64,000 nt of DNA, from positions 62,001-126,000 of the forward strand of contig RECY01000024.1 of NCBI GenBank assembly GCA_007693785.1, written 5' to 3'. Of this stretch, positions 9,944 to 29,329 are shown piece by piece (positions within the stretch are counted from its first letter, which is position 1; each line of letters begins with the position of its first letter). The notes under the pieces are model-generated. The model saw only the letters and a program-made list of their open reading frames with translations, made no database searches and had not been told where the DNA came from. This DNA comes from Phycisphaerales bacterium (GTDB lineage Bacteria; Planctomycetota; Phycisphaerae; Phycisphaerales; UBA1924). The translations under genes and the position numbers were made by a program.

Positions 9944-12900
9944 TTATCGCACTTTGGCTAGTTGCTCACCCATGCGTTTGCCGGAGACGGGCATCGCGGT
10001 CCCGAGATCCTGGGCGAAGAGCGAGACGCGGAGCTCCTCGAGCATCCAGCGCATCCGGTCCAGCTCCGGGTCCTCGATCGATTGGAGGGCGTGGGCCCGG
10101 GCCCGCTCGGCGTAGTGCCCGACCCAGAGGCCGAGCTCCGCCATCGCTTTCTGGTCCTTCGCCAAGCCGCCACGCCGGAGGCGTTCGAGCCGCGACGAGA
10201 CGGCCTTCAGATACCGCGGAAAATGTCGCAGCCACGCCTGCGGCGTCCGCACCAAAAAGCCCTCGGGCATCAGGAACGCGAGCTGGGCCCGGATGTCCGC
10301 GACCGAGCCCGCCCAAGGCGGGGGGAGGGGCCCCTCGAGCGCCAGCGTGACCTTGTGGAGCTCCTGGACGATGCCCTCGACGGTGCGGAAGACCTCGTGG
10401 ACGTGGGGGGAAAGATCCGGGTAGGCCTCGTGCAGGCGGCGCTCGAACGCGGCCCCGTCGCGGACGGGCTCCCGCCCTTCCAGGAACGCCCGTTCGACCG
10501 CCAGTTCCGCGATCGTGCGACGGATCGAGGCCGACGAGCCGAGCGGGGCGTATCGCAGCGCGAGCTTGTCCACCCCGGGCATGTGGGCGACCAGGGCGTC
10601 GATCTCTTTGCGGACCTGGTAATAGAAAAGACGCCGGAGCCCGGCCCTCGTCTCCCGTTCGGCGGCGGCCGGGTTCTCCAGCAGGCGGAGGGCAACCTTG
10701 TCCCCCTCGCAGACCAGCGATGGGAAGGCGGTGATGGTCGCGCCGGCGCGATGGGCCTCGACGCGCTCGGGGAGCTCGTCGAAGTCCCAGGTTCGGAGGT
10801 CGTCGCGGTTGTAGGGGGAATCGGCGAGGCGTCGGAGGGAGCCGCGGACGTCGGTTTTGAGGGTCTTCTGGAGGTTGCGGACGTCGCGCCCCCGCCCGAT
10901 CTCGCGCCCGCGTTCGTCCACGACGCTGAACGCCATGCGGAGGTGGAGCGGGAGGGCCTTCTCGTCGAGCGCGTCGCGCGGGAGCGGCTCGTGCGCACGG
11001 GCGGCGACGGCCGCCGCGACCTGCTCGAGGAGCGAGCCTCGCCCGAACTCGATCGTGCGCACGAACTCTTTGGCGAACTCCGGCGCGGGGCCGATGGCGC
11101 GTCGGAATTTCTTTGGGAGCAGACGCACGAGCTCGGCGATCTTGGATTCGAGCATCCCCGGCACCAGCCACTCGGCCCGGTGCGGGTCGATCGCGCCGAG
11201 CTGGGTCAGCGGGACGACGGCCGTCACGCCGTCGCGCTCGCCGTCCGGGTCGATCGCGTAATCCAGGCTGAGACGCTGCCCGAGCGACTCGATCTCATCG
11301 GGGTAGAGCTCCGGGCGGGCGAGGGTGTGGCGCTCGCCGACGAGGTCGTCGCGGGTCGCGTAGAGCAGTCGCCGGTTCTTCTCGTCCCCCTCGCGCTCGG
11401 CGAGCTTGCGGAAGCGGTTGAGACGCTGCACGTCGTAGACGTCCGGCGGCAGGCGCTGCTCGTAGAACGCGAGCAGCGCGTCGGGCACGTAGAGCGAGCC
11501 GGGGGCACGAAGCTTGGCTTCCTCGCGCCTGAGCTCCTCGATGAGGCGGTCGTTGTGGCGCTTGAAGCCGGCGTCGATGTTGCTCTCGCCCTCGACGAGG
11601 GCGTAGTGGATGAACATCTCGCGGGCCGAGGCGGGGTCGATGGGTCCGAACTCGACGCGTCGGCGTTCGACCAGGTCGAGCCCGAAGAGGCTGACCTTCT
11701 CATAGCAATAGACGCGCCCGGCCCGCGCGTCCCAGTGCGGCTCCGCGTGGGTCCGCTTGACCAGGTGCGCCCCGACGCGCTCGATCGCCGCGGGCTCGAT
11801 CTTGGCGACCGCGCGGGCGTAGAGCTTGCTCGTGCGCACGAGTTCTTCGGCGACGAGCCACTTCGGGCGGGTCTTGAAGACGCCGGAGCCAGGGAAGATG
11901 TGGAAGCGCAGGCCGCGCGGGCCCTTGTACTCGCCCGCCTTGTCCAGCGTGCCGACGTTGCTGAGCAGCCCCGCGAGCAACGCCTCGTGGACAACGCTCG
12001 GATCGGTCTCCTTTCGGTTGGGCTCGAAGCCCATCTCGACGATCAGCCCGCGGAGCTGGCGGTGCGTTTCGATCCACTCGCGCATGCGGACGTAGCTGAT
12101 GAAGTTGGCCTTGCAGGCCTTCTTGAGTTGGCTGGAGCCGAGCTTTTCCTTCAGGTCGTGGTAGAAGCGCCAGATCTTGAGCAGGGCGATGAAGTCGCTG
12201 TCTTCGCTGGCGAACTTTTCGTGGGCCGCGTCGGCCTCGTGGCGTTGGTCCATCGGGCGGTCGCGCGGGTCCTGGGCGGCGAGCGCACTGGCGATGATCA
12301 GCACCTCGGTCACGCACCCCGCCTCGGCCCCCGCGAGCAGCATCCGCCCCACGCGCGGGTCGATCGGCAGCTTCGCGAGGCGCTCGCCGATCGCGGTCAG
12401 CTCCCGCCGCTCGTCGATCGCGCCGAGCTCCAGCAGCGTGTCGTACCCGTCGCGGATCAGCCTGCCCTCCGGCGGCTCCACAAACGGGAACGACTCCGGG
12501 TCCCCCAGGCGGAGCGCCCGCATGCGGAGGATCACCGACGCGAGGTCCGTGCGCACGATCTCCGGCGGCGTGAACGCCTCGCGGGCGTCGAAGTCCTCTT
12601 CGGCGTATAAGCGGACGCACACACCCGGGCCGACGCGCCCGCAGCGCCCCTTGCGCTGGTCGGCCGAGGCCTGGCTGATCGGCTCGATCGGGAGCTGCTG
12701 AACCTTCGTCCGCGGGTTGTAGCGGCTGATGCGGGCCGTGCCGCAGTCGATCACCGCGCGGATGCCCGGCACCGTCAGCGAAGTCTCCGCGACGTTGGTC
12801 GCGATCACGACGCGCTGCCCGCGCCCTTGCTTGAACACACGCTGCTGCTCGGCCGTCGTGAGGCGCGCGTACAGCGGCAGGATCTCCAGACCCCGCCCGA

Positions 12901-13846
12901 GCACGCCGGCGTGCTCCTCCAGGTGCTTGGCGGTCTCGCGGATCTCCCGCTCGCCCGGCATGAAGACCAGCACGTCCCACGGCGCGTCGCGACGCAGCTC
13001 CTGCAACGCCTCCAGCACGGCGTCCTGCAGGCTCCGATCGTCCTCGTCGGGGGCCTCGGTCATCAGCGGGCGGTACCGCGTTTCCACCGGGTACATCCGC
13101 CCCTCGACCATCAAGACCGGCGCGCCGCCGAAGTGATCCGCAAAGCGCTGCGGGTCGATCGTCGCGCTGGTGATGATCAGTTTCAGGTCGGGGCGCTTGG
13201 GCAGGAGCTGGCGGAGATAGCCCATGAGAAAGTCGATGTTGAGGCTGCGCTCGTGGGCCTCGTCGATGATGATGGTGTCGTAGCGCCGGAGCCGGCGGTC
13301 GGTCTGGATCTCGGCGAGGAGGATGCCGTCGGTCATGAGCTTGACGGCCGTCTGCTCCGAGGTCTGATCCCCAAAGCGGACCTTGCTCCCGACGACGGTG
13401 CCGAACGGGACGTTGAGCTCGTCGGCGATGCGCTGCGCGACGCTCCGGGCGGCGATGCGCCGGGGCTGCGTGTGCGCGATCACGCCGGCCCGCCCGCGCC
13501 CGATCTCCAGGCAGATCTTGGGGAGCTGGGTCGTCTTTCCGCTCCCGGTCTCGCCGCAGAGGACGACGACCTGGTGGTTGCGGATGGCTTCCGCGATCTC
13601 CTCGCGCCGCTCGGAGACGGGCAGGTCGGGCGGGTACGTGATCTTCTTCGGGATGCCCGCTTCGCGCCGGGCGCGGCGTTGCACGCTGCGTTCGATCGCT
13701 TCGGCGAGGGGTCGCATCGTGCGCTCAGACGTATCGCCGCGCTCGTGCGCACGGTTCAGGCGCGTGCGCAGGCGTGCGCGGTCGGAGCTATCGCACGAGG
13801 CGAGCGAGGCTCGGAGGGCACGGAGATCCGGGGCACGTTCACGCAC
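9944..13846 (-). CDS. hrpA: ATP-dependent RNA helicase HrpA (DEAH box)
   Basis: DEAH/RHA helicase of 1300 residues, the same size as the E. coli enzyme. Walker A GETGSGKT lies at about residues 98-105, motif Ib TQPRRIAA, DEAH at 195-198 (IIIDEAHERSLNIDFLMGYL), SAT motif III, and the helicase_C, HA2 and OB-fold regions follow, with the long HrpA-specific C-terminal domain. The start is a judgement: the GTG at 13846 adds the segment SSDRARLRTRLNRAHE, which aligns with the N terminus of E. coli HrpA, while the ATG at 13717 would omit it. With the GTG start only about 40 bp separate it from the divergent ABC gene. The role is 3'-5' RNA/RNP remodelling, known in E. coli for mRNA processing and rescue of stalled ribosomes. 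Confidence 0.93.
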   Translation of the reverse strand: MRERAPDLRALRASLASCDSSDRARLRTRLNRAHERGDTSERTMRPLAEAIERSVQRRARREAGIPKKITYPPDLPVSERREEIAEAIRNHQVVVLCGETGSGKTTQLPKICLEIGRGRAGVIAHTQPRRIAARSVAQRIADELNVPFGTVVGSKVRFGDQTSEQTAVKLMTDGILLAEIQTDRRLRRYDTIIIDEAHERSLNIDFLMGYLRQLLPKRPDLKLIITSATIDPQRFADHFGGAPVLMVEGRMYPVETRYRPLMTEAPDEDDRSLQDAVLEALQELRRDAPWDVLVFMPGEREIRETAKHLEEHAGVLGRGLEILPLYARLTTAEQQRVFKQGRGQRVVIATNVAETSLTVPGIRAVIDCGTARISRYNPRTKVQQLPIEPISQASADQRKGRCGRVGPGVCVRLYAEEDFDAREAFTPPEIVRTDLASVILRMRALRLGDPESFPFVEPPEGRLIRDGYDTLLELGAIDERRELTAIGERLAKLPIDPRVGRMLLAGAEAGCVTEVLIIASALAAQDPRDRPMDQRHEADAAHEKFASEDSDFIALLKIWRFYHDLKEKLGSSQLKKACKANFISYVRMREWIETHRQLRGLIVEMGFEPNRKETDPSVVHEALLAGLLSNVGTLDKAGEYKGPRGLRFHIFPGSGVFKTRPKWLVAEELVRTSKLYARAVAKIEPAAIERVGAHLVKRTHAEPHWDARAGRVYCYEKVSLFGLDLVERRRVEFGPIDPASAREMFIHYALVEGESNIDAGFKRHNDRLIEELRREEAKLRAPGSLYVPDALLAFYEQRLPPDVYDVQRLNRFRKLAEREGDEKNRRLLYATRDDLVGERHTLARPELYPDEIESLGQRLSLDYAIDPDGERDGVTAVVPLTQLGAIDPHRAEWLVPGMLESKIAELVRLLPKKFRRAIGPAPEFAKEFVRTIEFGRGSLLEQVAAAVAARAHEPLPRDALDEKALPLHLRMAFSVVDERGREIGRGRDVRNLQKTLKTDVRGSLRRLADSPYNRDDLRTWDFDELPERVEAHRAGATITAFPSLVCEGDKVALRLLENPAAAERETRAGLRRLFYYQVRKEIDALVAHMPGVDKLALRYAPLGSSASIRRTIAELAVERAFLEGREPVRDGAAFERRLHEAYPDLSPHVHEVFRTVEGIVQELHKVTLALEGPLPPPWAGSVADIRAQLAFLMPEGFLVRTPQAWLRHFPRYLKAVSSRLERLRRGGLAKDQKAMAELGLWVGHYAERARAHALQSIEDPELDRMRWMLEELRVSLFAQDLGTAMPVSGKRMGEQLAKVR

Positions 13847-13885
13847 GGGCGGATGGTAGATCGCCGGGCCGCTATGCTGCGGGCG

Positions 13886-14662
13886 ATGCTGGAGACCGAC
13901 GCGGTCATCAAGCGGTACGACGGCGTGCCGGCGGTCGACGGGGTCAGCCTGCGGACCGAGCCCGGGCGGACCACGGCCCTGATCGGCCCGAGCGGGTGCG
14001 GCAAGAGCACGCTCCTCCGCCTTCTGGTCGGGCTGATCCTCCCCGACGAGGGGCGGGTGCTGTTCGATGGCGAGCCGCTGACCCGCGCGAGCCTGCGGGG
14101 CGTGCGCCACCGCCTCGGCTACGTCATCCAGTCCGGGGGGCTCTTCCCGCACATGACGGCGCGGCAGAACGCCACGCTCCCCGCTCGCCACGCGGGCGCG
14201 AAGGGCGGATGGACCAAGGCGAAGATCGCGGCTCGCCTCGACGAGCTCGCCGCCCTCACGCACTTCCCGGAAGACGGGCTCGATCGCTACCCCGGCGAGC
14301 TCTCCGGCGGGCAGCGTCAGCGCATCAGTCTGATGCGAGCGCTGTTTCTGGACCCTGAGGCGCTGCTGCTCGATGAGCCGCTGGGGGCGCTCGATCCGCT
14401 GATCCGGGGCGAGCTGCAGCACGAGCTGCGCGAGATCTTCGCGGCGCTCGGCAAGACCGTCGTGCTCGTGACGCACGACCTGGCCGAGGCGGCCTACCTC
14501 GCGGCGTCGGACATCGTGCTACTGAAAGACGGCAAGATCGTGCAGCGTGGGGCGTTCGCGGACCTGCGCGACCGACCAGGCGACGCGTTTGTGGAGCGGT
14601 TCATCGCGGCTCAGACCGAGCGTGTCGAGGCCCTCGTCGGGACGGGTGGGGGACGGGCGTGA
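13886..14662 (+). CDS. ABC transporter ATPase, osmoprotectant (OpuCA/ProV) type
   Basis: A 258-residue ABC ATPase: Walker A GPSGCGKS, Q-loop YVIQSGGLFPHMT, signature LSGGQRQRI, Walker B ALLLDEP, H-loop VTHD. The Q-loop context and the partner gene match quaternary-amine importers. It lacks the C-terminal CBS domains of OpuCA. ATG at 13886 is used; an in-frame ATG four codons earlier (13874) is possible, and neither has a strong ribosome site. Its end overlaps the next gene by 4 nt (GTGA). It energises uptake of glycine betaine, choline or a similar compatible solute (substrate inferred from family only). Confidence 0.85.
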   Translation: MLETDAVIKRYDGVPAVDGVSLRTEPGRTTALIGPSGCGKSTLLRLLVGLILPDEGRVLFDGEPLTRASLRGVRHRLGYVIQSGGLFPHMTARQNATLPARHAGAKGGWTKAKIAARLDELAALTHFPEDGLDRYPGELSGGQRQRISLMRALFLDPEALLLDEPLGALDPLIRGELQHELREIFAALGKTVVLVTHDLAEAAYLAASDIVLLKDGKIVQRGAFADLRDRPGDAFVERFIAAQTERVEALVGTGGGRA

Positions 14663-16191
14663 GGTTCATCGCGATCACATGCGCTTTGCTAGCGGCTCTG
14701 ATGCTCGGGGCGTGCGCCGGCGAAGACGAGGCCGAGACGCACCGTGCGCGTGCGCACGAAGCAGGCGCACGCCCGACGGTGGTCGTCGGGAGCAAAACGT
14801 TTACGGAGTCGGTGATTCTGGCCGAAACGCTCGCGCAGCTCGCGCGGGAGGGCGGGGCCGATGCACGCCACCGGTCCGACCTCGGCGGCACCCGCGTGCT
14901 CTTCGAGGGCCTCCGCCGCGGTGATATCGACGCGTATCCCGAGTACACCGGCACGATCCGCTACGAGTTGCTCGTGAACCTCAATATCGAGACCGATGAA
15001 GAGCTCGCGCCCGCGCTGGAGGCGATGGGGCTGCGGATGACGGAGCCGCTGGGGTTTAACAACACGTACGCGATCGGGATGACCGAGGCGCGGGCCGAGG
15101 AGCTTGGGATCACGCGGATCAGCGACCTGCGCGACCACCCGGGCTTGGTCATCGGCTTCAGCAACGAGTTCATGGACCGCGCGGACGGGTGGCCGGCGCT
15201 CCGCGACGCGTACGGGCTGCCGCATCGGCGGGTGTCGGGCGTGGACCACGACCTGGCGTACCGCGGGCTCGTGGGCGGCTCGATCGACGTGATGGATCTC
15301 TACGCGACCGACGCCGAAATCGCCTATTACGGGCTCCGCGTGATCGAGGACGACCGGTCGCACTTCCCGCGGTATGACGCGGTGATCCTGCACCGGGCGG
15401 ATCTGGGTGAGCGCGCGCCCGGGGTCGTCCGCGCCTGGTCGCGCCTCGCGGGGACACTCGACGAGGCGTCGATGTCGGCGCTGAACGAGCGGGCGAAGAT
15501 CGGGCGCGAGGCGGAGGCGCTCGTCGCGCAGTCCTTCATCGCCGAGTCGTTTGGCGTCGAGACAGAGGTGTTCGTCGAGGGCCTCTGGGGCGGGCTGTGG
15601 CGTACAACGCGGGAGCAGCTCGTGCTCGTGGGTGTGTCGCTGGGGCTGGCGGTGGTGGTCGCGGTGCCGCTGGGTTTGTTCGCGGCACGGGTGCCGCGTG
15701 TGCAGCAGCCGGTGCTCGGGGTGGTCGGCGTGTTCCAGACGATCCCGGCGCTCGCGATGCTGGTGCTGCTGATCCCGGTGTTCGGGCTGACGCCGGAAGC
15801 CGCGATCGCGGCGTTGTTCCTGTACAGCCTGCTCCCGATCGTTCGGAACACGCACGCGGGGATCGTGGGCATCGCGCCGGACGTTCGCGAGTCGGCCCGG
15901 GCCCTCGGGCTGCGCCCGTGGTTCGTCATCCTGCGGATCGAGCTGCCGATGGCGTTGCCGATGATTCTCGCGGGGATCAAAACCGCGGCCGTGATCAACA
16001 TCGGCACCGCGACGCTCGCCGCCCTGATCGGCGCGGGGGGCTACGGGCAGCCGATTCTGACCGGCATCCGCCTGGACGATTTCAGCTTGATCCTGCGCGG
16101 GGCGATCCCGGCGGCGGCGATGGCGCTGGCGGCTCAGGGGCTTCTGGACCTGGTCGAGCGCGCCGCGGTCCCGCGCGGTCTTCGCGCATAA
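14659..16191 (+). CDS. Osmoprotectant-type substrate-binding lipoprotein fused to permease
   Basis: A 510-residue fusion. Residues 1-19 are a lipoprotein signal with lipobox LGAC (C19). Residues about 38-300 form an OpuAC/ProX-like binding domain (VVVGSKTFTESVILAETLAQL, YPEYTGTI, DLYATDAEIAYYGL). Residues about 310-505 are a BPD_transp_1 permease with the EAA-type loop ESARALGLRPWFVILRIELPMALPMILAGIK. In most OpuB/OpuC systems these are separate genes, though fused versions are known. The GTG start overlaps the ATPase gene, and the two genes give a complete importer. As a lipid-anchored N terminus is outside the membrane, the binding domain is held next to the permease. Confidence 0.88.
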   Translation: MRFIAITCALLAALMLGACAGEDEAETHRARAHEAGARPTVVVGSKTFTESVILAETLAQLAREGGADARHRSDLGGTRVLFEGLRRGDIDAYPEYTGTIRYELLVNLNIETDEELAPALEAMGLRMTEPLGFNNTYAIGMTEARAEELGITRISDLRDHPGLVIGFSNEFMDRADGWPALRDAYGLPHRRVSGVDHDLAYRGLVGGSIDVMDLYATDAEIAYYGLRVIEDDRSHFPRYDAVILHRADLGERAPGVVRAWSRLAGTLDEASMSALNERAKIGREAEALVAQSFIAESFGVETEVFVEGLWGGLWRTTREQLVLVGVSLGLAVVVAVPLGLFAARVPRVQQPVLGVVGVFQTIPALAMLVLLIPVFGLTPEAAIAALFLYSLLPIVRNTHAGIVGIAPDVRESARALGLRPWFVILRIELPMALPMILAGIKTAAVINIGTATLAALIGAGGYGQPILTGIRLDDFSLILRGAIPAAAMALAAQGLLDLVERAAVPRGLRA

Positions 16192-16265: not shown

Positions 16266-16293
16266 TTGACGCACGGTGCGCAGCGTGTAGTCT
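16266..16293 (+). promoter_or_regulatory. Possible sigma70-like promoter upstream of egtBD
   Basis: TTGACG at 16266-16271 and TAGTCT at 16288-16293, 16 nt apart, about 55 nt before the egtB start. The -35 box is good and the -10 box is weak. Planctomycete promoter rules are not well enough known to be sure. Confidence 0.25.
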
Positions 16294-16349
16294 GCGAGAG
16301 GTCCGGATTCGAACCCTCAAGAGCGTGTTCAGGCGCGTCTGGAATCCAG

Positions 16350-17720
16350 ATGTCACCAGCCGGAAACGAGCCAGGAACTGCGGGGCACTCCGTCGGGAAC
16401 GCCGCGCGCCTCATCGATCGCGCGGCGTTGCGTGATCGGTACGCCGAGGTCCGCGCGACGACCGAGCGGTTGTGCTCGCCGCTCGAGCCGGAAGATTTCA
16501 ATCTTCAGACGATGCCGAACGCGAGCCCTGCGAAATGGCACGCGGCCCACACAAGCTGGTTTTTCGAGCGTTTCGTGTTGTGCGCGCACGACCCGTCGCA
16601 CACGGTGTTTGATGAGCGGTGGGAGTATCTGTTTAATTCGTATTATAATGCGGTGGGCGATCGTCACTGCCGGGCCCGACGCGGCGGGCTCACGCGCCCG
16701 ACCGTTGGCGAGGTGATGCGCTACCGCTGGCACGTGGACGAATCGATGACGCGCCTTTTAGAGCGCGAGAGCACCCCACCGGAGGCGCTGGCACTGATCG
16801 AGCTCGGGCTGCACCACGAGCAGCAGCATCAGGAACTGCTGCTCACCGACATCCTGCACGGGTTCTGGGATAACCCGCTGCTGCCGACGTACGACGCCGG
16901 GGAGGTCACGCCCGAGCCGGCTCGCGATCCCGGCGAGATGGGCTTTGTCGCGTTCAATGCGGGCGTGCGCACGATCGGGCACGCGGGGGATGGGTTCGCC
17001 TACGACCACGAGTCGCCGCGTCATCGGGTGTTTCTGGAGGCGTTCGAGATCGGCGATCGGCTCGTGACCAACGCGGAGTATGCCGAGTTCATCGGCGACG
17101 GTGGGTATGCGCGGAGCGAGCTTTGGCTTGACGAAGGTTGGGCTGCGGTGCGGGGCGAGGGCTGGCGCGGGCCGCTGTACTGGCACCGCGGGGGACCTCC
17201 GGGTGATCGCGATGCGGGTGAGGCGCCGCGCCGCATGTTTACCCCCCGCGGGGATCTGGCGCTCGATCCGCACGCGCCGGTCTGCTGCGTGAGTTTTTTC
17301 GAGGCGGACGCGTACGCACGCTGGCGCGGGTGCCGCCTGGCGACGGAGTTTGAATGGGAATCGGCGTGCGCGGCGCATGCGGGGTGTGGCGTGCCTGCGG
17401 GGGGCAATCTGCTGGAATCCCGCGAGCTCCGCCCGCTTGGTGCCGTTGAACGCACCGGCTCATCGCCGATCCGTCAGGCTTACGGCGACTGCTGGGAATG
17501 GACGCGGAGCGACTACGCCCCGTACCCCGGCTACAAGGCCCCGCCGGGCGCGGTGGGGGAGTACAACGGCAAATTCATGTGCGGGCAGTTCGTGCTGCGG
17601 GGCGGGTCGTTCGCGACGCCGCGATCGCATCTTCGCGCGACCTACCGCAACTTCTGGGCCCCCGCGACGCGGTGGCAGTTCTCAGGGATCCGTCTCGCAA
17701 GAGGCGGCGCGGAGGCGTAA
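16350..17720 (+). CDS. egtB: Ergothioneine synthase EgtB (hercynine-modifying sulfoxide synthase)
   Basis: Non-haem iron enzyme joining hercynine to a thiol donor (gamma-glutamylcysteine or cysteine) with O2. Of 456 residues, the first 180 form the DinB-like domain with the expected three-His iron site: H67 in AKWHAAHTSWFFE, and H156 and H160 in HHEQQHQE. The rest is the FGE-sulfatase-like domain (FEIGDRLVTNAEYAEF, VCCVSFFEADAYARWRGCRLATEFEWESA, GDCWEWTRSDYAPYPG, VLRGGSF). The ATG chosen gives MSPAGNEP; the frame is open further upstream without family similarity. egtD follows after 2 nt. No egtA, egtC or egtE is nearby, so the thiol donor cannot be decided here. Confidence 0.93.
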   Translation: MSPAGNEPGTAGHSVGNAARLIDRAALRDRYAEVRATTERLCSPLEPEDFNLQTMPNASPAKWHAAHTSWFFERFVLCAHDPSHTVFDERWEYLFNSYYNAVGDRHCRARRGGLTRPTVGEVMRYRWHVDESMTRLLERESTPPEALALIELGLHHEQQHQELLLTDILHGFWDNPLLPTYDAGEVTPEPARDPGEMGFVAFNAGVRTIGHAGDGFAYDHESPRHRVFLEAFEIGDRLVTNAEYAEFIGDGGYARSELWLDEGWAAVRGEGWRGPLYWHRGGPPGDRDAGEAPRRMFTPRGDLALDPHAPVCCVSFFEADAYARWRGCRLATEFEWESACAAHAGCGVPAGGNLLESRELRPLGAVERTGSSPIRQAYGDCWEWTRSDYAPYPGYKAPPGAVGEYNGKFMCGQFVLRGGSFATPRSHLRATYRNFWAPATRWQFSGIRLARGGAEA

Positions 17721-17722
17721 GC

Positions 17723-18691
17723 GTGACCACGACCGTGAAGATGACCGACCTGCACCCCCCGGCCGACGATGTCCGGGCCGACGTTTTGGAAGGCTTGCAA
17801 GCGGAGGGGCAGAAGACGGTCCCGTGCAAGTATCTGTACGACGCGCGGGGTTCGGTGTTGTTCGACGAGATCACCGAAACCAAGGCGTACTACCCGACGC
17901 GGACGGAGATGTCGATTTTCGATCGCGAGTCCGCCTCGATCGCGGACGCGGTGGGGCCGAGGGCCGCGGTCATCGAGCTGGGCTCCGGCGCGAGCCTGAA
18001 GATCCGGAAACTCCTAGACATCCTCGACGAACCCGCGGCGTACGTCTCGGTCGAGATCTCCAAGGAGCACCTCGCCCAGTCGGCGGAGGAGGCGGCTCAG
18101 GCCTATCCCGACGTCGAAGTGCAGGCGGTGTGCGCCGATTTCACGCGCCCGATCGAGATGCCGGAGATCGAAGCCGATCACGACTCACGCCTTGTCTTCT
18201 TCCCGGGCTCCACTATCGGGAATTTCACGCCCGAGGGCACGCGAGCGATGCTCGCGCGGATCCGGGAGTTATTGATTTCGGAGGCGGACGCCGCGATCGT
18301 GGGTGCCGATCTCGAAAAAGACCCGAGCATTCTGCGTGAGGCGTACGACGACCCCGACGGCGTGACGGCCGCGTTCAACCTGAACCTGCTCGAGCGCCTG
18401 AACCGTGAGCTCGGGGCGGATTTCGACCTCGCGTCCTTCCACCATGAAGCCCGCTACAACGACCAAAAGAAGCGGATCGAGATGCACATCGTGAGCGATC
18501 GCGAGCAGACGGTCTCGGTCGCGGGGCACCGGGTCCGGTTCGGGGCGGGCGAGACGATCCATACGGAGAACTCGCACAAGTTCACCACGGCGAAGTTCTC
18601 GGCCCTCGCGGGCGAAGCCGGGCTCCGCCTCGACAAGGCCTGGACCGACGAGAACGACCTTTTCTCGGTCAACCTGCTCCGTCGCGCCTGA
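17723..18691 (+). CDS. egtD: L-histidine N-alpha-methyltransferase EgtD
   Basis: Trimethylates histidine to hercynine, the substrate for EgtB. It has 322 residues, the usual size. Family signatures are KYLYDARGSVLFDEITETKAYYPTRTE, motif I VIELGSGASLK, the segment LVFFPGSTIGNF and the C-terminal ENSHKFTTAKFSALA. The start is GTG, preceded by GGAGG at 17711-17715, inside the end of egtB, so the pair is translationally linked. A strong terminator follows 48 nt after the stop, which marks a two-gene ergothioneine operon. Confidence 0.95.
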   Translation: MTTTVKMTDLHPPADDVRADVLEGLQAEGQKTVPCKYLYDARGSVLFDEITETKAYYPTRTEMSIFDRESASIADAVGPRAAVIELGSGASLKIRKLLDILDEPAAYVSVEISKEHLAQSAEEAAQAYPDVEVQAVCADFTRPIEMPEIEADHDSRLVFFPGSTIGNFTPEGTRAMLARIRELLISEADAAIVGADLEKDPSILREAYDDPDGVTAAFNLNLLERLNRELGADFDLASFHHEARYNDQKKRIEMHIVSDREQTVSVAGHRVRFGAGETIHTENSHKFTTAKFSALAGEAGLRLDKAWTDENDLFSVNLLRRA

Positions 18692-19008
18692 TCCGATCCC
18701 CGCGGATATCCCGCTAGACCGTGTGAATCTGTGACGCCCGCACGCCCGGGCCCGAGTTTTCGGGCCCGGGCGTGCGTTGTTTGTGGTTCTCGGTCTCCAA
18801 CATCCCCCGGTGCGCGGGCTGATGGCTTCCCCGCGCCTGCCGATCCGGCACAGACGGGCGGGGAGCGGCTTCCGAGACGGTCGCGTCGTGCAGTGGGGTT
18901 CGGTTCGCGCCGATGCCGAGAGCCGGTCGGAAGGGCGCCGTCGAGGCGTCGGTGTCCCGGCGCGGCCGGGGTGTGTGTCCAAGTGTCAGGTTGCAGGGAG
19001 TACGCGGC
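18692..19008. other. Intergenic region between egtD and the lipoprotein gene (317 bp)
   Basis: It holds the egtBD terminator at 18739-18784. The remaining 225 bp presumably carry the promoter and leader of the lipoprotein gene. A purine-rich GCAGGGAG lies eight bases before its ATG. I see no convincing promoter boxes, riboswitch or small gene. Confidence 0.5.
18739..18784 (+). terminator. Rho-independent terminator of egtBD
   Basis: A perfect 17-bp stem (18739-18755 with 18760-18776, arm CGCACGCCCGGGCCCGA) with a 4-nt loop GTTT, followed by TTGTTTGT. It is the longest perfect hairpin I noticed in the window. Confidence 0.85.
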
Positions 19009-21795
19009 ATGTCGAACGAACGAGCGTCGAACCGATGGGGTTTCCGTGGGCAGACGGGGCGTAGGGTCGTGATCACGGCCGTGGTCGCGGGTCTGGCGGG
19101 CGGGCTGAGCGGGTGTGCGAGCGACGGAGAGCGCACGAGCGGCTTCTTCCGCTCGAACAGCAACGTCCGCACGATCGAGATCGACGCGGGCAAGGCGACC
19201 GCGACGGTCGATCCGAACGCGGCCCGGGGGAGCTACACGAGCGAGTGGTACCAGGAGCAGGCGCGCGGCGTCGAGCTCCCGGCGAAGTGGCTGAGCGAGG
19301 CCCGCGACGCGACGGCGGCGATCGAGGCGCGTCGCGCGGCTGCGCAGTCGGCGATGGTCGAGAGCGAGGCGGACCGTCGCGAGCGCATGGCGCTCGCCGA
19401 CGCGGGGCGCGAGGCCGCTTTCAGCCGTGAATCCGCCGCCCGGAGCGAGGCGCAGCGGATGAACACGGTGTTCGGCGCGAAGATGACCGAGTTCTCCGCG
19501 CAGGCCGACGCGCGGGCGATGCTCGCCGAGTCCGCCGATATGCGTAACGCGGCCGAGCTGAACGCCAGCATCCGCGAGTGGGAGGCGGAAGCGAACAAGC
19601 TCCGCGCCGACAGCGAGCAGGGCTGGAACCGCGCTCTCGCCGAGCACGCCCGGATGCTCGCTGAGCGTTCGGCTGTGGAGGAGCGCGGGCGTGCGAACAT
19701 CGAGGAGATGACCCGTCGCGTGGACCTGACCGAGCAGCGGGCCGGTGCGAAGGTCAGCTCGCTGCGTCAGCAGTCGCAGTCGATCACCGAGCGGACGACC
19801 GCGCTGGTCAGCGAGCTGAACCAGCAAGTCGAGACCGTCAGCGAGCAGACGACCGCTGAGGTCAGCGACCTCCGCCAGCGCGCCCGCTCGTTGCGTGACA
19901 GCACCTCGGCCCAGTCGAAGGGCCTGCTCAGCGAGGCGTCGTCGCTCGACACGATCGACGTCGATCGCCGCTACGAGCTCGAACTGATCGGGACCGAAGC
20001 GAACTACGCCGAGTCGCTCGCCAAGGCCGAGGAGATCCGTCGTCAGCTCGAAGCCGACGAGGACAGCCTGCTCGCCGGGGTGCAGCGTCGCGAGGCGGAC
20101 CACACCGAGTCGTTCGACCGCGTACGGAGCGATTTCGATTCGGCGATCGCGTCGGTCGAGTCGTCCTTCGAGCAGGGCCTGAGCGACATCGATGTGATGC
20201 GGAGCGAGGCGGACCGCCTGGAGCGTCAGGCCCGCGCCCAGTTTGTGAACGCCGAGGCCGAGGCCCGCGCTCGCGCCCTGCGTGAAGAGAGCGCCCACCA
20301 GCGTGCGCTGGCGGAGGCGGACTACGAGCGTCTCCGCGCCGGCGCGGAGAGCGAGGCGGCGAAGATCTCGGCCGAGACGGCTCGCCAGGTCGCCCAGCAG
20401 GTGCGCAGCGGGAGCTGGTCGCTCCCGGGCAACACCAACCCGGTCGCAAGCGGCGTGAGCCCGAACAGCGACACGCCCCAGATGGCCGAGCCGAGCACGC
20501 GTCCGAACGTGGTCGAGCCGGACCGCGTCGCGCAGTTCCGGACGAAGCTGGCGGAGGTTGTGAAGCTCCGCATGCAGGCGGACGCTCAGGAGAAGGCGTT
20601 GTACGCCGACGCCGACCAGCGCCGCGCCGACTTCCGGGCGTGGTACGAGGAGAAGGTGGCGGCTCACGACGCGTGGTCGTCGGAGATCGAGTCCACGCGT
20701 CGCAAGGGCTTCGCGTCGATCGCCGAGCGTCACGCCCGGATCGACGCGACGCTCGCCCAGGCCGACGCGGCCCGCAACCGGGCGCTCGTCGACGCCGAGA
20801 GCACCCGCAAGGAGACGCTGGCGCGGATCACCAAGCTCCGCGCCGAGGCCGAGCAGCTCGAGCGGACCGGCGAGGCCCGGGTCGAGCAGCTGCTCGCCCG
20901 CGCCGACGCGACCGAGCGGAACGGTGTGACGCGTGTGGAGAACCTGCAGGTGCAGCGTGAATCGACGCTCCGCCGCGGGAACGCCGAGTCCGCCCGCCTC
21001 GCCGCCGAGGCCGACGCGCTCGAGCAGTCGCAGCGTGCCGTCGTCGCCCAGATGATCCGCGAGATCGAGTCGTCGGAGCGGATGCTGGTGGCCGAGCTCG
21101 CCCGCCTGGACCGTGCGGCCCAGAGCTTCTACGAGATCGCCGAGGCGACCTACAACGAGGGCCTGTTCGCGGCCGAGACCTTCGACCGCATCGCTCAGGC
21201 CAACGCTTCGGAGCTGGCGGCGACGCACGAGACGCAGCGCCGGATCGCGCAGGCCGAGGTCGGCTACATGCGTGAGCTGGCGTCAGCGCAGCGTCTGACC
21301 GCCGAGGCCGCGGTCGACCGCAAGCTCGCCGACGCGGAGCGTCAGGTCAGCGATCACCTCGCGCAGGACACGATGACCCGTGCCGAGATCGCGGCCCGGG
21401 CTCAGATGGCTCAGGCGGAGGTGAACAACCAGTTCACGATCGCCGGCGCCGAGGAGCACGCCGTCCGCGCTCGCTTCGACGCCCGCATCGCGATGACCGA
21501 GTCGGACCGCAACCGCGCCTACGCCCGTCTCTACCTGGAGCGTCAGCAGCAGCAGCGCCGCGTCGAGCAGGCGATGGCCGCCGCCGCCGCCTACGAAGAA
21601 CTCAGCCGCGAGGCCCTCGCCCGTCTGAACGAGCGTTCGGACCGCTTCAACCGTACGGCCGACCAGAACTGGGACAGCCGCCTCGCCCTCCCTGCCAACT
21701 TCCCCATGCCCACGCCCGTCGAGAAGCTCGACAGCGATGGCGCCAACATCTTCAACCAGCGCGGCTTCGTCAACGTGCCCGAGCCGCAGCAGTAA
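19009..21795 (+). CDS. Very large coiled-coil lipoprotein, function unknown
   Basis: A 928-residue protein. The N terminus is a lipoprotein signal (RRVVITAVVAGLAGGLSGC) with lipobox LSGC, cysteine 36, so it should be lipid-anchored in the cell envelope. After a 60-residue linker (GFFRSNSNVRTIEIDAGK) almost everything to about residue 890 is Ala/Glu/Arg/Gln-rich and predicted helical by eye. It contains many short runs such as AEAEARARALREES, ERQQQQRRVEQAMAAAAAYEEL and QRALAEADYERLRA. A Ser/Pro/Asn gap near 470-500 divides two helical halves. The end is non-helical (NFPMPTPVEK to VNVPEPQQ). The chosen ATG follows GCAGGGAG. No enzyme motif is recognised. A long envelope spacer or scaffold is plausible, but that is only inference. 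Confidence 0.8.
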   Translation: MSNERASNRWGFRGQTGRRVVITAVVAGLAGGLSGCASDGERTSGFFRSNSNVRTIEIDAGKATATVDPNAARGSYTSEWYQEQARGVELPAKWLSEARDATAAIEARRAAAQSAMVESEADRRERMALADAGREAAFSRESAARSEAQRMNTVFGAKMTEFSAQADARAMLAESADMRNAAELNASIREWEAEANKLRADSEQGWNRALAEHARMLAERSAVEERGRANIEEMTRRVDLTEQRAGAKVSSLRQQSQSITERTTALVSELNQQVETVSEQTTAEVSDLRQRARSLRDSTSAQSKGLLSEASSLDTIDVDRRYELELIGTEANYAESLAKAEEIRRQLEADEDSLLAGVQRREADHTESFDRVRSDFDSAIASVESSFEQGLSDIDVMRSEADRLERQARAQFVNAEAEARARALREESAHQRALAEADYERLRAGAESEAAKISAETARQVAQQVRSGSWSLPGNTNPVASGVSPNSDTPQMAEPSTRPNVVEPDRVAQFRTKLAEVVKLRMQADAQEKALYADADQRRADFRAWYEEKVAAHDAWSSEIESTRRKGFASIAERHARIDATLAQADAARNRALVDAESTRKETLARITKLRAEAEQLERTGEARVEQLLARADATERNGVTRVENLQVQRESTLRRGNAESARLAAEADALEQSQRAVVAQMIREIESSERMLVAELARLDRAAQSFYEIAEATYNEGLFAAETFDRIAQANASELAATHETQRRIAQAEVGYMRELASAQRLTAEAAVDRKLADAERQVSDHLAQDTMTRAEIAARAQMAQAEVNNQFTIAGAEEHAVRARFDARIAMTESDRNRAYARLYLERQQQQRRVEQAMAAAAAYEELSREALARLNERSDRFNRTADQNWDSRLALPANFPMPTPVEKLDSDGANIFNQRGFVNVPEPQQ

Positions 21796-21866: not shown

Positions 21867-21900
21867 CCGGCCCCGCCTTCCCAGGCGGGGCCGGTGTCTA
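21867..21900 (+). terminator. Probable terminator of the lipoprotein gene
   Basis: An 11-bp perfect stem (21867-21877 with 21884-21894, CCGGCCCCGCC) with a 6-nt loop, followed by TGTCTATTCCTAT. The T tract is interrupted, so the call is less certain. It lies about 70 nt after the stop, between convergent genes. Confidence 0.6.
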
Positions 21901-25737: not shown

Positions 25738-25746
25738 GCCTCCGTT

Positions 25747-25775
25747 GGTGGCACAGCTCTCCGAGCTGTGCCACC
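25747..25775. repeat. Perfect hairpin after the OYE gene
   Basis: A 13-bp perfect inverted repeat (GGTGGCACAGCTC at 25747-25759 and its complement at 25763-25775) around TCC. The outer flanks GTTGG and CCAAC can extend it. It has no T tract, so it is not a classic terminator; it may be a REP-like palindrome or an mRNA end-stabiliser. No second copy was found in this window. Confidence 0.6.
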
Positions 25776-25834
25776 GGGGCCCAACGTCTGGTACGATCCG
25801 CCTCGCCCTGTTCCGGGCGATGTGGAGACGATGC

Positions 25835-28800
25835 ATGGCGACGATGAGCCGTTGGTGGGTGCTGGTGCTGGGTGTGGCGGCGTTACTGGGTGCGCCGGCG
25901 TTCGCGGACGAGCCTGCCCAGGATGCCGAGGATGCCGAGGACGCGGACGTTGAAGCCGCTGAAGCCGGCGAGAAGCCCCCCAGCGTCTGGAACGTCGACG
26001 AGCCCCGCGGCCCCACCTTCGAACGCGACATCGACGTCACCGAGGGCACCTGGCTCAGCCTCGACGTCTCGCCCGACGGCGAGTGGATCGCGTTCGACCT
26101 CCTCGGCGACCTCTACATGATGCCCATCGAGGGCGACGAGACCGGCGAACGCGTCCGCAAGCTCACCGGCGGCATGAGCTGGGACATGCAGCCCCGCTTC
26201 AGCCCCTGTGGCACCAAGATCGCCTTCACCAGCGACCGCAACAGCATCGATAAGGACGGCAAGGTCAGCTCCAAAGCCGGCGACAACATCTGGACCATCG
26301 ACCTCGACTCCGGCGAGCTCACCCAGATTTCCAATGAGCCCTTCCGCCTCCTCAACGCCCCCGCGTGGCACCCCTCGGGCGACTACATCGTCGCGCGCAA
26401 GCACTTTACGAGCCGCCGCTCTCTTGGCTCCGGCGAAATGTGGATGTACCACGCCGCGGGCGTCCGCGCCGGCGCGACCGGCGGCGTGCAACTCACCGAA
26501 AAACCCACCGACCAGAAGGACGTCAACGAGCCCGTCTTCAGCCCCGACGGGCGCTATCTCTACTTCTCCGAGGACGCCAGCCCCGGGCAGAACTTCGAGT
26601 ACAACAAGGACTCCAACCAGCAGATCTACGTCATCAACCGACTCGACACCGAGACCGGCGAGCAGCAACGCTACATCACCGGCCCCGGCGGCTCCGCCCG
26701 CCCCACGCCCTCGCCTGACGGTGAAAAGATCGCCTTCGTCCGGCGCTTCGACGGGCGCAGCGCGCTGCACATCTTCGACATCCGTTCCGGGCGCGTCGAC
26801 ATGGTCCACAACGACCTCGAACGCGACATGCAGGAAGCCTGGGCGATCCACGGCGTCTACCCGACCATCGCGTGGACGCCGGACAGCACGTCCATCGTCT
26901 TCTGGGCGCGCGGCAAGATCCGGCGGATCGACCTGAACGAGGACCGCAGCGCCGGCGACGTGCGCACGATCCCGTTCCGCGTGCGCGACACGCGGACGCT
27001 CGCCGAGCCGCTGCGGTTCGCGATCGATCCCGCGCCCGACGAGGTGCGGGCGCGGATGCTCCGCTGGGTGCAGGTTGCGCCGAACGGCAAGCAGGTCGCG
27101 TACCAGGCGCTCGGGAAGATCTGGATCAAGGACCTGCCCGACGGCACGCCGCGCCGCCTGACCGAGCAGGACGAGCACTTCGAGTTCTACCCCGCCTGGT
27201 CGCGCGACGGGCGCCAGCTCGTGTACACCACCTGGCACGACGAGCAGCTCGGCTCGGTCCGCGTCGCGGACATGGAAACCGGCGAGACGTGGCGCGTCAC
27301 GCGCGACCCCGGGCACTATGTCGAGCCGGCGTTCTTCCCGCTCGGCGGCTCGGTCCTCTACCGCAAGGTCGGCGGCGGGGGCGTCGTCAGCCCGTTGTGG
27401 GGGCGCGAGCCGGGGATCTACCGCGTCACCGCCGTCCAGCGCCTGGCGCCGAGCACGCCCGAACTGCTCACCCGAGACGGGGTCCACCCCCAGTTCGGCA
27501 ACAGCAACACACGCCTGTATGTCACGCGGGCCGCCTTTGCCCGCGACGCCGACAACCGCAAGCTGATCGAGATCGAACTCGGCGGCGAGCACCAGGGGCG
27601 CGAGCGCGAGCTCTACACGAGCACCTGGGCGCAGGACTACCGCGTCTCGCCCGACGGCAAGTGGGTCGCGTTCGTTGAGCGGTTCAACGTCCACGTCGCG
27701 CCGATGGTGCGCACGGGGCGGGCGATCGCCATTGGGCCGAGCACGACGTCGATCCCCGTGCAGCGCGTCGGCGAGGACGCGGGGTGGCACGTCCACTTCT
27801 CGGGCGACAGCCAGCGCCTGCACTGGTCGCTCGGCCCGACGCTCTTTACGCGGGAACTTAGCGACAGCTTCGCCTTCCTCGACGGCTCGCCCGAAGAGGC
27901 CCCGGACCTGACGGCCGAGGGTATCGATATCGGCTTCAATTTCCCGCACGACAAGCCCGAGCGCACGATCGCCCTCGTCGGCGGGACCGTTTACACGATG
28001 GACCCGGACGCCGAGGATTTCGGGCGGATCGAGAACGCGACCGTGCTGATCGAGGGCAATCGCATCACCAGCGTCGGCCCGCGGGGTGACATCCGCGTGC
28101 CGAGCGGCGCGGAGGTGCTCGACGTCAGCGGGCAGGTCGTCCTCCCGGGCTTCCTAGAGGCGCACGCGCACGGGCCGATGGCGATCAACGGTATCACGCC
28201 GCAGCACAACTGGGTGAACGCCGTGCGCCTCGCCTTCGGCGTGACGACGGTGCATGATCCCTCGAACGACACCGCGTCGATCTTCAGTTCCAGCGAGATG
28301 ACGATGGCCGGGGCCAACGTCGGGCCGCGGACGTTCAGCACGGGGACGATCCTGTACGGCGCCGCCGGCGGGTTCGCCGCCCCGGTCGAGAGCTACGACG
28401 ACGCGCTCTTCCACCTCCGGCGGATGCAGGCGGTGGGGGCGTGGAGCGTCAAGAGCTACAACCAGCCGCGGCGTGACCAGCGTCAGCAGGTCGTCGAGGG
28501 CGCGCGCGAGCTCGGCATGATGGTCGTCCCCGAGGGCGGGAGCACCTTCATGCACAACCTCACCATGATCGTCGACGGGCACACCGGGATCGAGCACACG
28601 TTCCCGGTCGAGATCGTCTACGACGACGTCCTCCAGCTCTGGAAGCCGGAGCCCGATCGCGGGCTCGCCTCGGTCGGCGTCGGGTACACGCCCACGCTCA
28701 GCGTCGCCTACGGCGGGCTCACCGGCGAGATCTACTGGTACCAGCAAGACGAGCTCTGGAAGCACGGGAAGCTGCGGAGCTTTGTGCCGCCGGAGATCAT

Positions 28801-29329
28801 CATCCCGCGCGCCCGCCGCCGGTTGATGGCCCCGCAGGAAGATTTCAACCACTTCCTGTGCGCACGTATTACCAAGCAGGCGATCGACATCGGCATCCCC
28901 GTCCAGCCCGGCGGGCACGGGCAGATGCCCGGGCTCAACACCCACTGGGAGATCTGGATGATGGCCCAGGGCGGCATGTCCAACCTCGAAGCCCTGCGCT
29001 CCGGCACCTACGACGGCGCCCGCCACCTCGGGCTCGACCGCGACCTCGGCTCGATCACCCCCGGCAAGCTCGCCGACCTGGTCGTCATCGAACCCGGGCG
29101 CGACCCGACCCGCGAGATCCGCGACAGCGAGTTCATCCAGTGGACCATCGCCAACGGGCGCGTCTACGACGCGAAGACCATGGGCGAACGACAGCCCGGC
29201 GGCGAGCTCGCCAACGCGCCAACCTTCTACTGGATGGACCCGAACTACTCGCCCTCCAGCGTCCCGCCCGCCTTCACCGGGTGCGAAGGGTGCGGCTACC
29301 CGACCGCCTGCTCGTGGGGGCACCCGTAA
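25835..29329 (+). CDS. Secreted TolB-like PD40 repeat / amidohydrolase fusion
   Basis: A 1164-residue exported protein. The signal peptide is MATMSRWWVLVLGVAALLGAPAFA, and GGAG seven bases upstream fixes the ATG. Residues about 60-700 hold WD40-like PD40 repeats (SPDGEWIAFDLLGDLYMMPI, FSPCGTKIAFTSDRN, FSPDGRYLYFSED, SPDGEKIAFVRRFDGR, SRDGRQLVYTTWHDE). From about 705 comes an amidohydrolase: ALVGGTVYTMDPD, metal site HAHG near residue 776, GIEHTFPVEIV, and the late GSITPGKLADLVVIEPGRDP. The family includes imidazolonepropionase- and prolidase-like enzymes. The substrate is unknown; the propeller probably selects a peptide or oligomer. Confidence 0.85.
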   Translation: MATMSRWWVLVLGVAALLGAPAFADEPAQDAEDAEDADVEAAEAGEKPPSVWNVDEPRGPTFERDIDVTEGTWLSLDVSPDGEWIAFDLLGDLYMMPIEGDETGERVRKLTGGMSWDMQPRFSPCGTKIAFTSDRNSIDKDGKVSSKAGDNIWTIDLDSGELTQISNEPFRLLNAPAWHPSGDYIVARKHFTSRRSLGSGEMWMYHAAGVRAGATGGVQLTEKPTDQKDVNEPVFSPDGRYLYFSEDASPGQNFEYNKDSNQQIYVINRLDTETGEQQRYITGPGGSARPTPSPDGEKIAFVRRFDGRSALHIFDIRSGRVDMVHNDLERDMQEAWAIHGVYPTIAWTPDSTSIVFWARGKIRRIDLNEDRSAGDVRTIPFRVRDTRTLAEPLRFAIDPAPDEVRARMLRWVQVAPNGKQVAYQALGKIWIKDLPDGTPRRLTEQDEHFEFYPAWSRDGRQLVYTTWHDEQLGSVRVADMETGETWRVTRDPGHYVEPAFFPLGGSVLYRKVGGGGVVSPLWGREPGIYRVTAVQRLAPSTPELLTRDGVHPQFGNSNTRLYVTRAAFARDADNRKLIEIELGGEHQGRERELYTSTWAQDYRVSPDGKWVAFVERFNVHVAPMVRTGRAIAIGPSTTSIPVQRVGEDAGWHVHFSGDSQRLHWSLGPTLFTRELSDSFAFLDGSPEEAPDLTAEGIDIGFNFPHDKPERTIALVGGTVYTMDPDAEDFGRIENATVLIEGNRITSVGPRGDIRVPSGAEVLDVSGQVVLPGFLEAHAHGPMAINGITPQHNWVNAVRLAFGVTTVHDPSNDTASIFSSSEMTMAGANVGPRTFSTGTILYGAAGGFAAPVESYDDALFHLRRMQAVGAWSVKSYNQPRRDQRQQVVEGARELGMMVVPEGGSTFMHNLTMIVDGHTGIEHTFPVEIVYDDVLQLWKPEPDRGLASVGVGYTPTLSVAYGGLTGEIYWYQQDELWKHGKLRSFVPPEIIIPRARRRLMAPQEDFNHFLCARITKQAIDIGIPVQPGGHGQMPGLNTHWEIWMMAQGGMSNLEALRSGTYDGARHLGLDRDLGSITPGKLADLVVIEPGRDPTREIRDSEFIQWTIANGRVYDAKTMGERQPGGELANAPTFYWMDPNYSPSSVPPAFTGCEGCGYPTACSWGHP

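Follow-up and report, generated by a model that had tools for sequence, protein, structure and literature searches.

A lipoprotein family of the Phycisphaerae with a proposed antiparallel hairpin rod

Within the window, the whole 64,000-nucleotide stretch of contig RECY01000024.1 of a Phycisphaerales bacterium that was analyzed here, one open reading frame (ORF; 19009-21795 on the + strand, stop codon included) encodes a lipoprotein of 928 residues that is almost wholly helical. We propose that this is probably a lipoprotein of the cell envelope, folded back so that its two long helices pack as an antiparallel coiled-coil rod, which would make a stiff stalk or spacer. This hairpin is favored because of the covariation register between its two coils, the placement of insertions and deletions (indels), and the breaks at paired heights in AlphaFold2 (AF2) models. 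New here are the 18-residue repeat, the antiparallel covariation of the coils, and the indels that avoid the paired stretches. The first-pass annotation had seen a 928-residue lipoprotein of nearly continuous helix with one Ser/Pro-rich gap, and the ORF is as it described, with the gap at residues ~458-505. Its ~850 residues of helix do form a long coiled coil by our analysis, but the single extended filament that it envisaged gives way to a fold-back hairpin, as covariation, indel placement and AF2 breaks indicate, and the reach far beyond a normal periplasm that it imagined shrinks from ~120 nm to a predicted ~48-58 nm. Thus, a vague "long coiled-coil lipoprotein" becomes a testable object, with a predicted antiparallel register, length and second contact face, in a family free of known domains.

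Covariation statistics place the two coils antiparallel

We added up the regularized covariation of coil-1 with coil-2 positions along every line, antiparallel or parallel, and smoothed the sums, using 71 of 75 homologues (four with coverage below 90% were dropped; the effective number was 43-60 under three weightings). The antidiagonal i+j=922 reached a smoothed z of 6.98 compared with 2.60 for the best parallel line, and none of the row permutations attained it (0/300, with a maximum of 4.36, and 0/200 in a second run). The signal is present in all four segments of arm 1 (z 3.0, 4.9, 3.4 and 2.2), bands 10 residues off the line are near zero (0.3 and -0.0), and the unsmoothed peak falls on the same line (924). 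By these statistics, the coils run antiparallel, with residue i beside residue 922-i. Among the covarying pairs are 131/791, 217/707 and 282/644. A first covariation analysis by simple mutual information, with a maximum of 3.5, had been read as giving no clear signal and is superseded by the smoothed, regularized one. With the arms of SMC proteins as a positive control (23 sequences), the expected register was the top antidiagonal (sum 1175; 1/200 permutations). Summing weak covariation along diagonals could, we suggest, yield coiled-coil topology from ~70 sequences.

Coil 1 (residues 97-457) is exactly 361 residues long in 66/75 homologues and coil 2 (506-890) exactly 385 in 67/75. We do not take this constancy as the special sign of a "ruler," since SMC arms are equally constant in 23 of the same genomes (N arm 315 residues in 23/23; C arm 0.22 gap openings per 100). 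A census of indels relative to the window protein, made in 73 homologues with the truncated L152 dropped, counted 38 events: the tip holds 23, the base 12 (including one contig end, in L158), and three start at 408-409, on the tip edge. No indel falls wholly inside residues 97-407 or 516-825. The largest deletion, shared by the related members L096 and L097, spans 108 residues (408-515) and takes out the tip symmetrically (408+515=923), and the loop at 458-505, 48 residues in the window protein, ranges from 0 to 83 residues among homologues. The zones were drawn from the covariation register, so the census is a consistency test, with the exact gap ends subject to the alignment and some events common to related members.

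AF2 modeled the window protein as helices 92-236, 243-315, 318-466, 504-676 and 685-883, with a predicted local distance difference test score (pLDDT) of 78.8 and a predicted template modeling score (pTM) of 0.52; the distant member L089 scored 80.1 and 0.50. The breaks at 237-242 and 677-684 stand at paired heights (sum ~920), and those of L089 (201-211 and 649-654) correspond to ~231-241 and 679-684 in window numbering. At the kinks the repeat phase is continuous (shifts of 6 and 5 degrees, where 90 is the maximum), and Pro plus Gly amount to at most 0.03 in the family. A folded elbow at the modeled kinks is therefore possible at most, given that they face each other in register, that the phase is unbroken and that Pro and Gly are scarce. 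The same continuity and scarcity, together with the absence of covariation at the kink centers, led us to reject the kinks as hairpin turns within each coil. A weak peak of the whole-protein covariation scan (1361; 3.5) lies near the second kink. Foldseek returned MukB as the top match for both models and condensin in the top four, at template modeling (TM) scores of merely 0.07-0.18, and PrgA at rank 5 (E 0.027) for the L089 model; VIA-align preferred F-BAR helices (Z 12.4), a score that its notes describe as common for long helices and that lies in the range given there for helical models lacking a clear match. None of these relatives is trustworthy, and presence or absence in such lists decides nothing.

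On the proposed reading, Cys36 would be acylated. In Escherichia coli, the +2 residue, with Asp as the signal, guides the membrane sorting of lipoproteins by the Lol rule. Since Asp is absent at +2 (among 74 homologues: S 27, A 23, E 8, G 7, T 6, Q 2, N 1), an outer-membrane location is suggested. The chain would leave the membrane through a linker of ~60 residues, arm 1 would rise ~48 nm (322 residues x 0.15 nm), the chain would turn at the Pro-rich, variable tip far from the membrane, and arm 2 would return, bringing the conserved NWDSRLA foot near the anchor. This motif (N in 61, W in 66, L in 66 and A in 67 of 75 homologues) would, were the register to hold all the way, face the lipobox Cys (36+886=922). 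The intramolecular contact might run, as a guess, through the face of large hydrophobic residues, which would leave the Ala-only face free to pack on another hairpin in a dimer, bundle or row. Such a rod would be a stiff stalk or spacer fixing the tip, or a partner bound to it, at a set distance from the membrane, and a stalk or spacer in the envelope is our best guess for its role. Periplasms of other planctomycetes can be much enlarged, according to the parts of PMC5394234 drawn on here, so that whatever sets or bridges distances there is of interest.

The register recurs in parts of the alignment, at weaker significance. Random disjoint halves of the alignment gave 922 and 921 as top antidiagonals, with 3/100 permutations at or above the value in the first half, and four subsets of 23 gave 922, 920, 922 and 920, of which two had 0/50, one 1/50 and one 11/50 permutations at or above; two tree clades, scored without permutation, peaked at 925 and 921 after smoothing. 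Several further results weigh against the hairpin or loosen its register. In the SMC control, noisy at 23 sequences and hence partial, one parallel diagonal outscored the antiparallel line (5.05 versus 4.58). A fainter antidiagonal near 982 (z 3.6 for its band, 3.2 after smoothing) has no explanation, residues 62-96 are off register (z -3.1 at 922), residues 97-150 alone peak at 949 (1.3 at 922), and residues 361-418 marginally prefer 904 (3.5) over 922 (3.2). The angular analysis did not single out a contact face, and the covariation fits a hairpin and an antiparallel dimer alike. Moreover, the AF2 confidence is modest, the models being monomers built from largely overlapping alignments, and the neighboring genes give no clue to function.

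Helix faces and alternative arrangements

Profile autocorrelation over 36 sequences has its top lags at 18, 36, 54 and 72 (z 17.6, 16.2, 14.2 and 10.4), an 18-residue (18/5) repeat of 3.60 residues per turn that runs through both coils. Heptad analysis found the coils to be non-heptad: the period of large hydrophobic residues is 100.0 degrees per residue (power 25.2) for coil 2 and 99.25 (11.3) for coil 1, compared with 102.5-102.75 in SMC. Little supercoiling is expected, because 18/5 is close to the 3.63 residues per turn given for a straight helix in the part of PMC4786415 cited. The power of Ala sits in the second harmonic (160 = 200 degrees), at 61.8 in coil 2 and, at 159.25 degrees, 32.1 in coil 1, and that of acidic residues likewise (42.7 and 33.0). 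In coil 2, the axis of small residues points to 2 degrees, that of charges to 93 and that of bulky residues to 356; the helix therefore offers an Ala-only contact face and, opposite it, a bulky one, separated by charges. The repeat breaks phase once in coil 1, where its axis moves from ~144 to ~37 degrees. An internal duplication relating coil 1 to coil 2 was set aside, their likeness being explained by the common repeat.

With two such faces, hairpins or single helices could instead stand side by side through their Ala faces in a wall or barrel, like the wall helices of flotillin-type proteins, and make a lipid-anchored fence or tube in the envelope, which we regard as rather unlikely. The walls of HflC (31 sequences) share the design, with small residues on opposite faces (power 15.4), charges perpendicular to them and bulky residues on one small face, and the two-face signal is strong in a flotillin relative from a distant planctomycete genus (21.1, in a 100-residue window) and in E. 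coli HflC (15.1). According to the parts of PMC11260169 used here, the flotillin wall itself consists of side-by-side helices with A/G-E-A/G-E repeats, no heptads, and charges inside and outside. Among 582 ORFs of at least 300 residues at the context loci, every one of the 43 belonging to the family has its Ala peak at 159.5-160.5 degrees (range searched 150-170); for the remaining 539, the 99th percentile is 9.8 and the maximum 10.2, leaving aside four antisense shadows of the family gene (above 11). However, one unrelated ORF of the same genome reached 12.6 (532 ORFs outside the window, range 158-162, the remainder at most 8.8). In the two-face test, E. coli TolC, TolA, Tsr, AtpF and HflK were negative; YqiK and QmcA were barely above shuffles in some windows, and so was PspA, a non-SPFH protein with a borderline result, in one. 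HflC has a periodicity of 98 degrees versus 100 in the lipoprotein, the latter lacks an SPFH domain, and the pattern suits a dimer or a four-helix bundle of hairpins equally well. The fuller version, in which hairpins of Phycisphaerae pack through the free Ala face into a lipid-anchored palisade of ~50 nm, an SPFH-like wall without the SPFH domain, is doubtful; if true, its arms would be longer than any SPFH wall helix in the portion of PMC11260169 that lists them.

Still less probable is an antiparallel homodimer, in which coil 1 of one chain would lie on coil 2 of the other, with anchors at both ends of a rod that could bridge two membranes. The covariation is equally compatible with this arrangement, the tip then being a hinge in mid-rod. 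However, so variable a loop length (0-83 residues) and the symmetric loss of 108 residues are simpler to understand for the loop of one hairpin, and both AF2 monomers break at paired heights. The unfolded parallel filament of ~120 nm first proposed is very improbable: although the helix phase is continuous through most of each coil, save the break at 305-315, the antiparallel covariation, the symmetric tip deletion and the lack of signal along any parallel line from coil to coil (best 2.60) all oppose it.

Family, distribution and locus

The lipobox noted in the first pass (L-S-G-C36) is clear and conserved: a separate rule on the residues before Cys found it in 74/75 homologues, the 75th (L152) being truncated at its start. 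The absence of recognized domains was likewise borne out. Pfam gave only weak matches to the window protein, all below the curated cut-off, PHROGs gave weak matches (e.g., PHROG 200, "lipoprotein," E 0.012), NCBIfam and PADLOC gave none, and phmmer against PDB chains gave none up to E 0.1. At E 0.001, 36 homologues matched no Pfam family, hence no SMC/ABC ATPase head, SPFH/Band 7 or SLH domain. The family profile matched a single PDB chain up to E 0.1 (E 0.043) and no SMC chain; SMC-like segments, which the earlier reading had listed as grounds for abandoning it, did not appear in these profile searches, and the likeness to SMC is one of architecture, not sequence. By its sequence, the lipoprotein is neither an SMC nor an SPFH protein, and no enzyme activity would be expected of it. 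A literature search found no paper on the family, which does not prove that none exists; the family is real and conserved, and uncharacterized as far as these searches show. Its members also share LPxxWVSEA near the end of the linker, and a V-P in the last 14 residues occurs in 43/52 members of the order versus 1/23 from other orders; this tail motif may bind a partner near the anchor.

Homologues are patchily distributed within the class Phycisphaerae. All genome counts are lower bounds, with up to 14 candidates scored per genome in the one-sequence search, 2 in the order, class and phylum searches, 5 in that of its own taxonomic family and 7-10 in the last two of the three further groups below, and the tallies include a few weak or partial matches. 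A one-sequence search found homologues in at least 15/61 genomes, and profile searches in at least 57/400 of the same order, 37/397 of the class, 42/163 of its own taxonomic family (no match in 121 among the candidates scored), and at least 10/39, 12/89 and 8/114 in three further groups. A sample of the phylum gave at least 13/392, of which eight belong to the same class and five are merely weak matches to the flotillin relative. Together with the 121 genomes of its taxonomic family that gave no match, this does not bear out a general feature of planctomycete envelopes, and the link narrows to part of one class. Homologues reach at least three orders at pairwise identities of 17-98%, so the ORF is not a chance product. 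The 13 named contigs are all metagenome-assembled genomes (10 Phycisphaerales, one Phycisphaerae, one Planctomycetota and one labeled just "bacterium"). Since the homologue tree mainly follows taxonomic families, inheritance was probably mostly vertical, with loss; family f1 lies on both sides of the midpoint root, and f20 and f23 are intermixed.

The 75 homologues were drawn from 85 sequences by merging identical cores, and include up to 31 extra loci and the named contigs. The homologue of genome G302 (L083, 3732-4895 and 14298-16379) was excluded, being in two pieces, of which the second half precedes the first by ~10 kb in the same orientation, with a masked stretch. One locus (L087, 5793-13053) carries two tandem homologues that are 62% identical, and G1120, of the same genus, likewise has two. 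The flotillin relative (L065, 301-2457, a 718-residue ORF, and L066-L069, with open frames of 718-726) contains three near-perfect 18-residue repeats and matches no Pfam family at E 0.01; over 451 residues, L065 shares 31% identity with E. coli YqiK.

An alternative ATG at 18913 would give a product of 960 residues; we take 19009 as the start, because a GGGAG ribosome site lies there and the signal peptide then comes first. The downstream gene is convergent, which fits the single-gene unit proposed earlier, as does the upstream terminator with its 17-bp stem. That terminator is the one site listed by the terminator scan (shuffles average 1.2, so the count itself is ordinary), whereas the downstream terminator thought probable in the first pass was not listed, the region holding just a 12-bp GC-rich hairpin with no clear T-run (Table 1). 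A 924-residue antisense ORF (18454-21228, - strand) covers most of the lipoprotein gene; similar shadows cluster at 13/41 loci, and it is presumably a shadow of biased codons. Around the homologues at the 41 loci lie housekeeping genes without relation to the family, and these vary from group to group. Antisense shadows aside, the most widely shared cluster occurs at 9/41 loci and is local synteny (RibD, a weak RNase HII match, an NADH dehydrogenase subunit, RecA, triosephosphate isomerase, YicC and peptidases); the neighborhoods point to no functional partner.

Directly upstream in the window (16266-18691), Pfam identified an FGE-sulfatase/DinB protein followed by a histidine-specific methyltransferase (Methyltransf_33), a pair which we take to be EgtB/EgtD-like. 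Before it lie an ABC ATPase gene (12827-14662) and a gene for a 510-residue fusion of an OpuAC substrate-binding domain to an ABC permease domain (14659-16191). A 1194-residue protein at 25745-29329 joins a PD40 propeller to an amidohydrolase.

Table 1. Features of the lipoprotein gene and its flanks, in window coordinates
Feature	Position	Strand	Basis
Intrinsic terminator of upstream methyltransferase gene, 17-bp stem	18739..18776	+	Terminator scan
Coding sequence, 928-residue lipoprotein	19009..21795	+	ORF list, translation, homologues
Signal peptide and lipobox LSG-C36, residues 1-36	19009..19116	+	Sequence; lipobox in 74/75 homologues, 75th truncated
N-terminal linker, residues 37-96, with LPxxWVSEA at ~89-97	19117..19296	+	Homologue alignment; residues 62-96 off hairpin register
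Arm 1 of proposed hairpin, residues 97-418	19297..20262	+	Repeat, covariation, indels
Possible elbow in arm 1, residues 237-242	19717..19734	+	Break in both AF2 models; against: continuous phase, almost no Pro/Gly
Phase break of 18-residue repeat, residues ~305-315	19921..19953	+	Phase analysis; AF2 break at 316-317
Tip, residues 419-503: end of coil 1 and Ser/Pro-rich loop	20263..20517	+	23/38 indel events
Arm 2 of proposed hairpin, residues 504-825; runs antiparallel to arm 1 with i+j ~922	20518..21483	+	Covariation, indels
Possible elbow in arm 2, residues 677-684, opposite 237-242	21037..21060	+	Both AF2 models; against: continuous phase, almost no Pro/Gly
Base of coil 2, residues 826-890, without coil-1 partner	21484..21678	+	Register; 12/38 indel events
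Conserved NWDSRLA, residues 887-893, foot of arm 2	21667..21687	+	Homologue alignment
C-terminal tail VNVPEPQQ	21769..21792	+	Homologue alignment
12-bp GC-rich hairpin, convergent intergenic region, no clear T-run	21867..21894	.	Read from sequence; not listed by terminator scan

Comparison with known coiled-coil systems

PrgA of Enterococcus is surface-anchored on a long coiled-coil stalk, as a wall-anchored adhesin with a globular part; it belongs to a Gram-positive organism, and the lipoprotein has no such globular domain. Omp-alpha of Thermotoga maritima attaches to the membrane through an SLH domain and a C-terminal segment. It resembles the lipoprotein as a long coiled-coil envelope spacer, a rod of ~50 nm that the parts of PMC5082667 consulted describe as modeled as a four-stranded coil, in contrast to the N-terminal lipid and proposed hairpin here.

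The wall helices of SPFH proteins (flotillin and HflC) resemble the lipoprotein in surface design: they are non-heptad, their small residues occupy two opposite faces and their charges the remaining two, to the extent covered by those parts of PMC11260169. They differ in length (44-189 residues in the same source versus ~320 for the lipoprotein arms), in periodicity (98-99.5 versus 100.0 degrees) and in the SPFH domain, which the lipoprotein lacks. The two-faced helix of small residues taken as the mark of such walls is present in the lipoprotein, yet HflK itself does not have it.

The arms of SMC, Rad50 and MukB resemble the lipoprotein in architecture, with two long antiparallel helices in fixed register, a central turn and a possible elbow, and SMC arms are, like those of the lipoprotein, nearly free of indels across class-wide divergence. 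Their length of ~50 nm, as given with that of Omp-alpha in the cited part of PMC5082667, is similar to the reach predicted for the hairpin. The lipoprotein differs in having no ATPase heads, no hinge domain and no detected sequence similarity, in carrying a lipid anchor, and in its 18/5 repeat (100.0 degrees in coil 2) in place of SMC heptads. One feature that it shares with them, arms running antiparallel, emerges from the covariation statistics whether the pairing is intra- or intermolecular.

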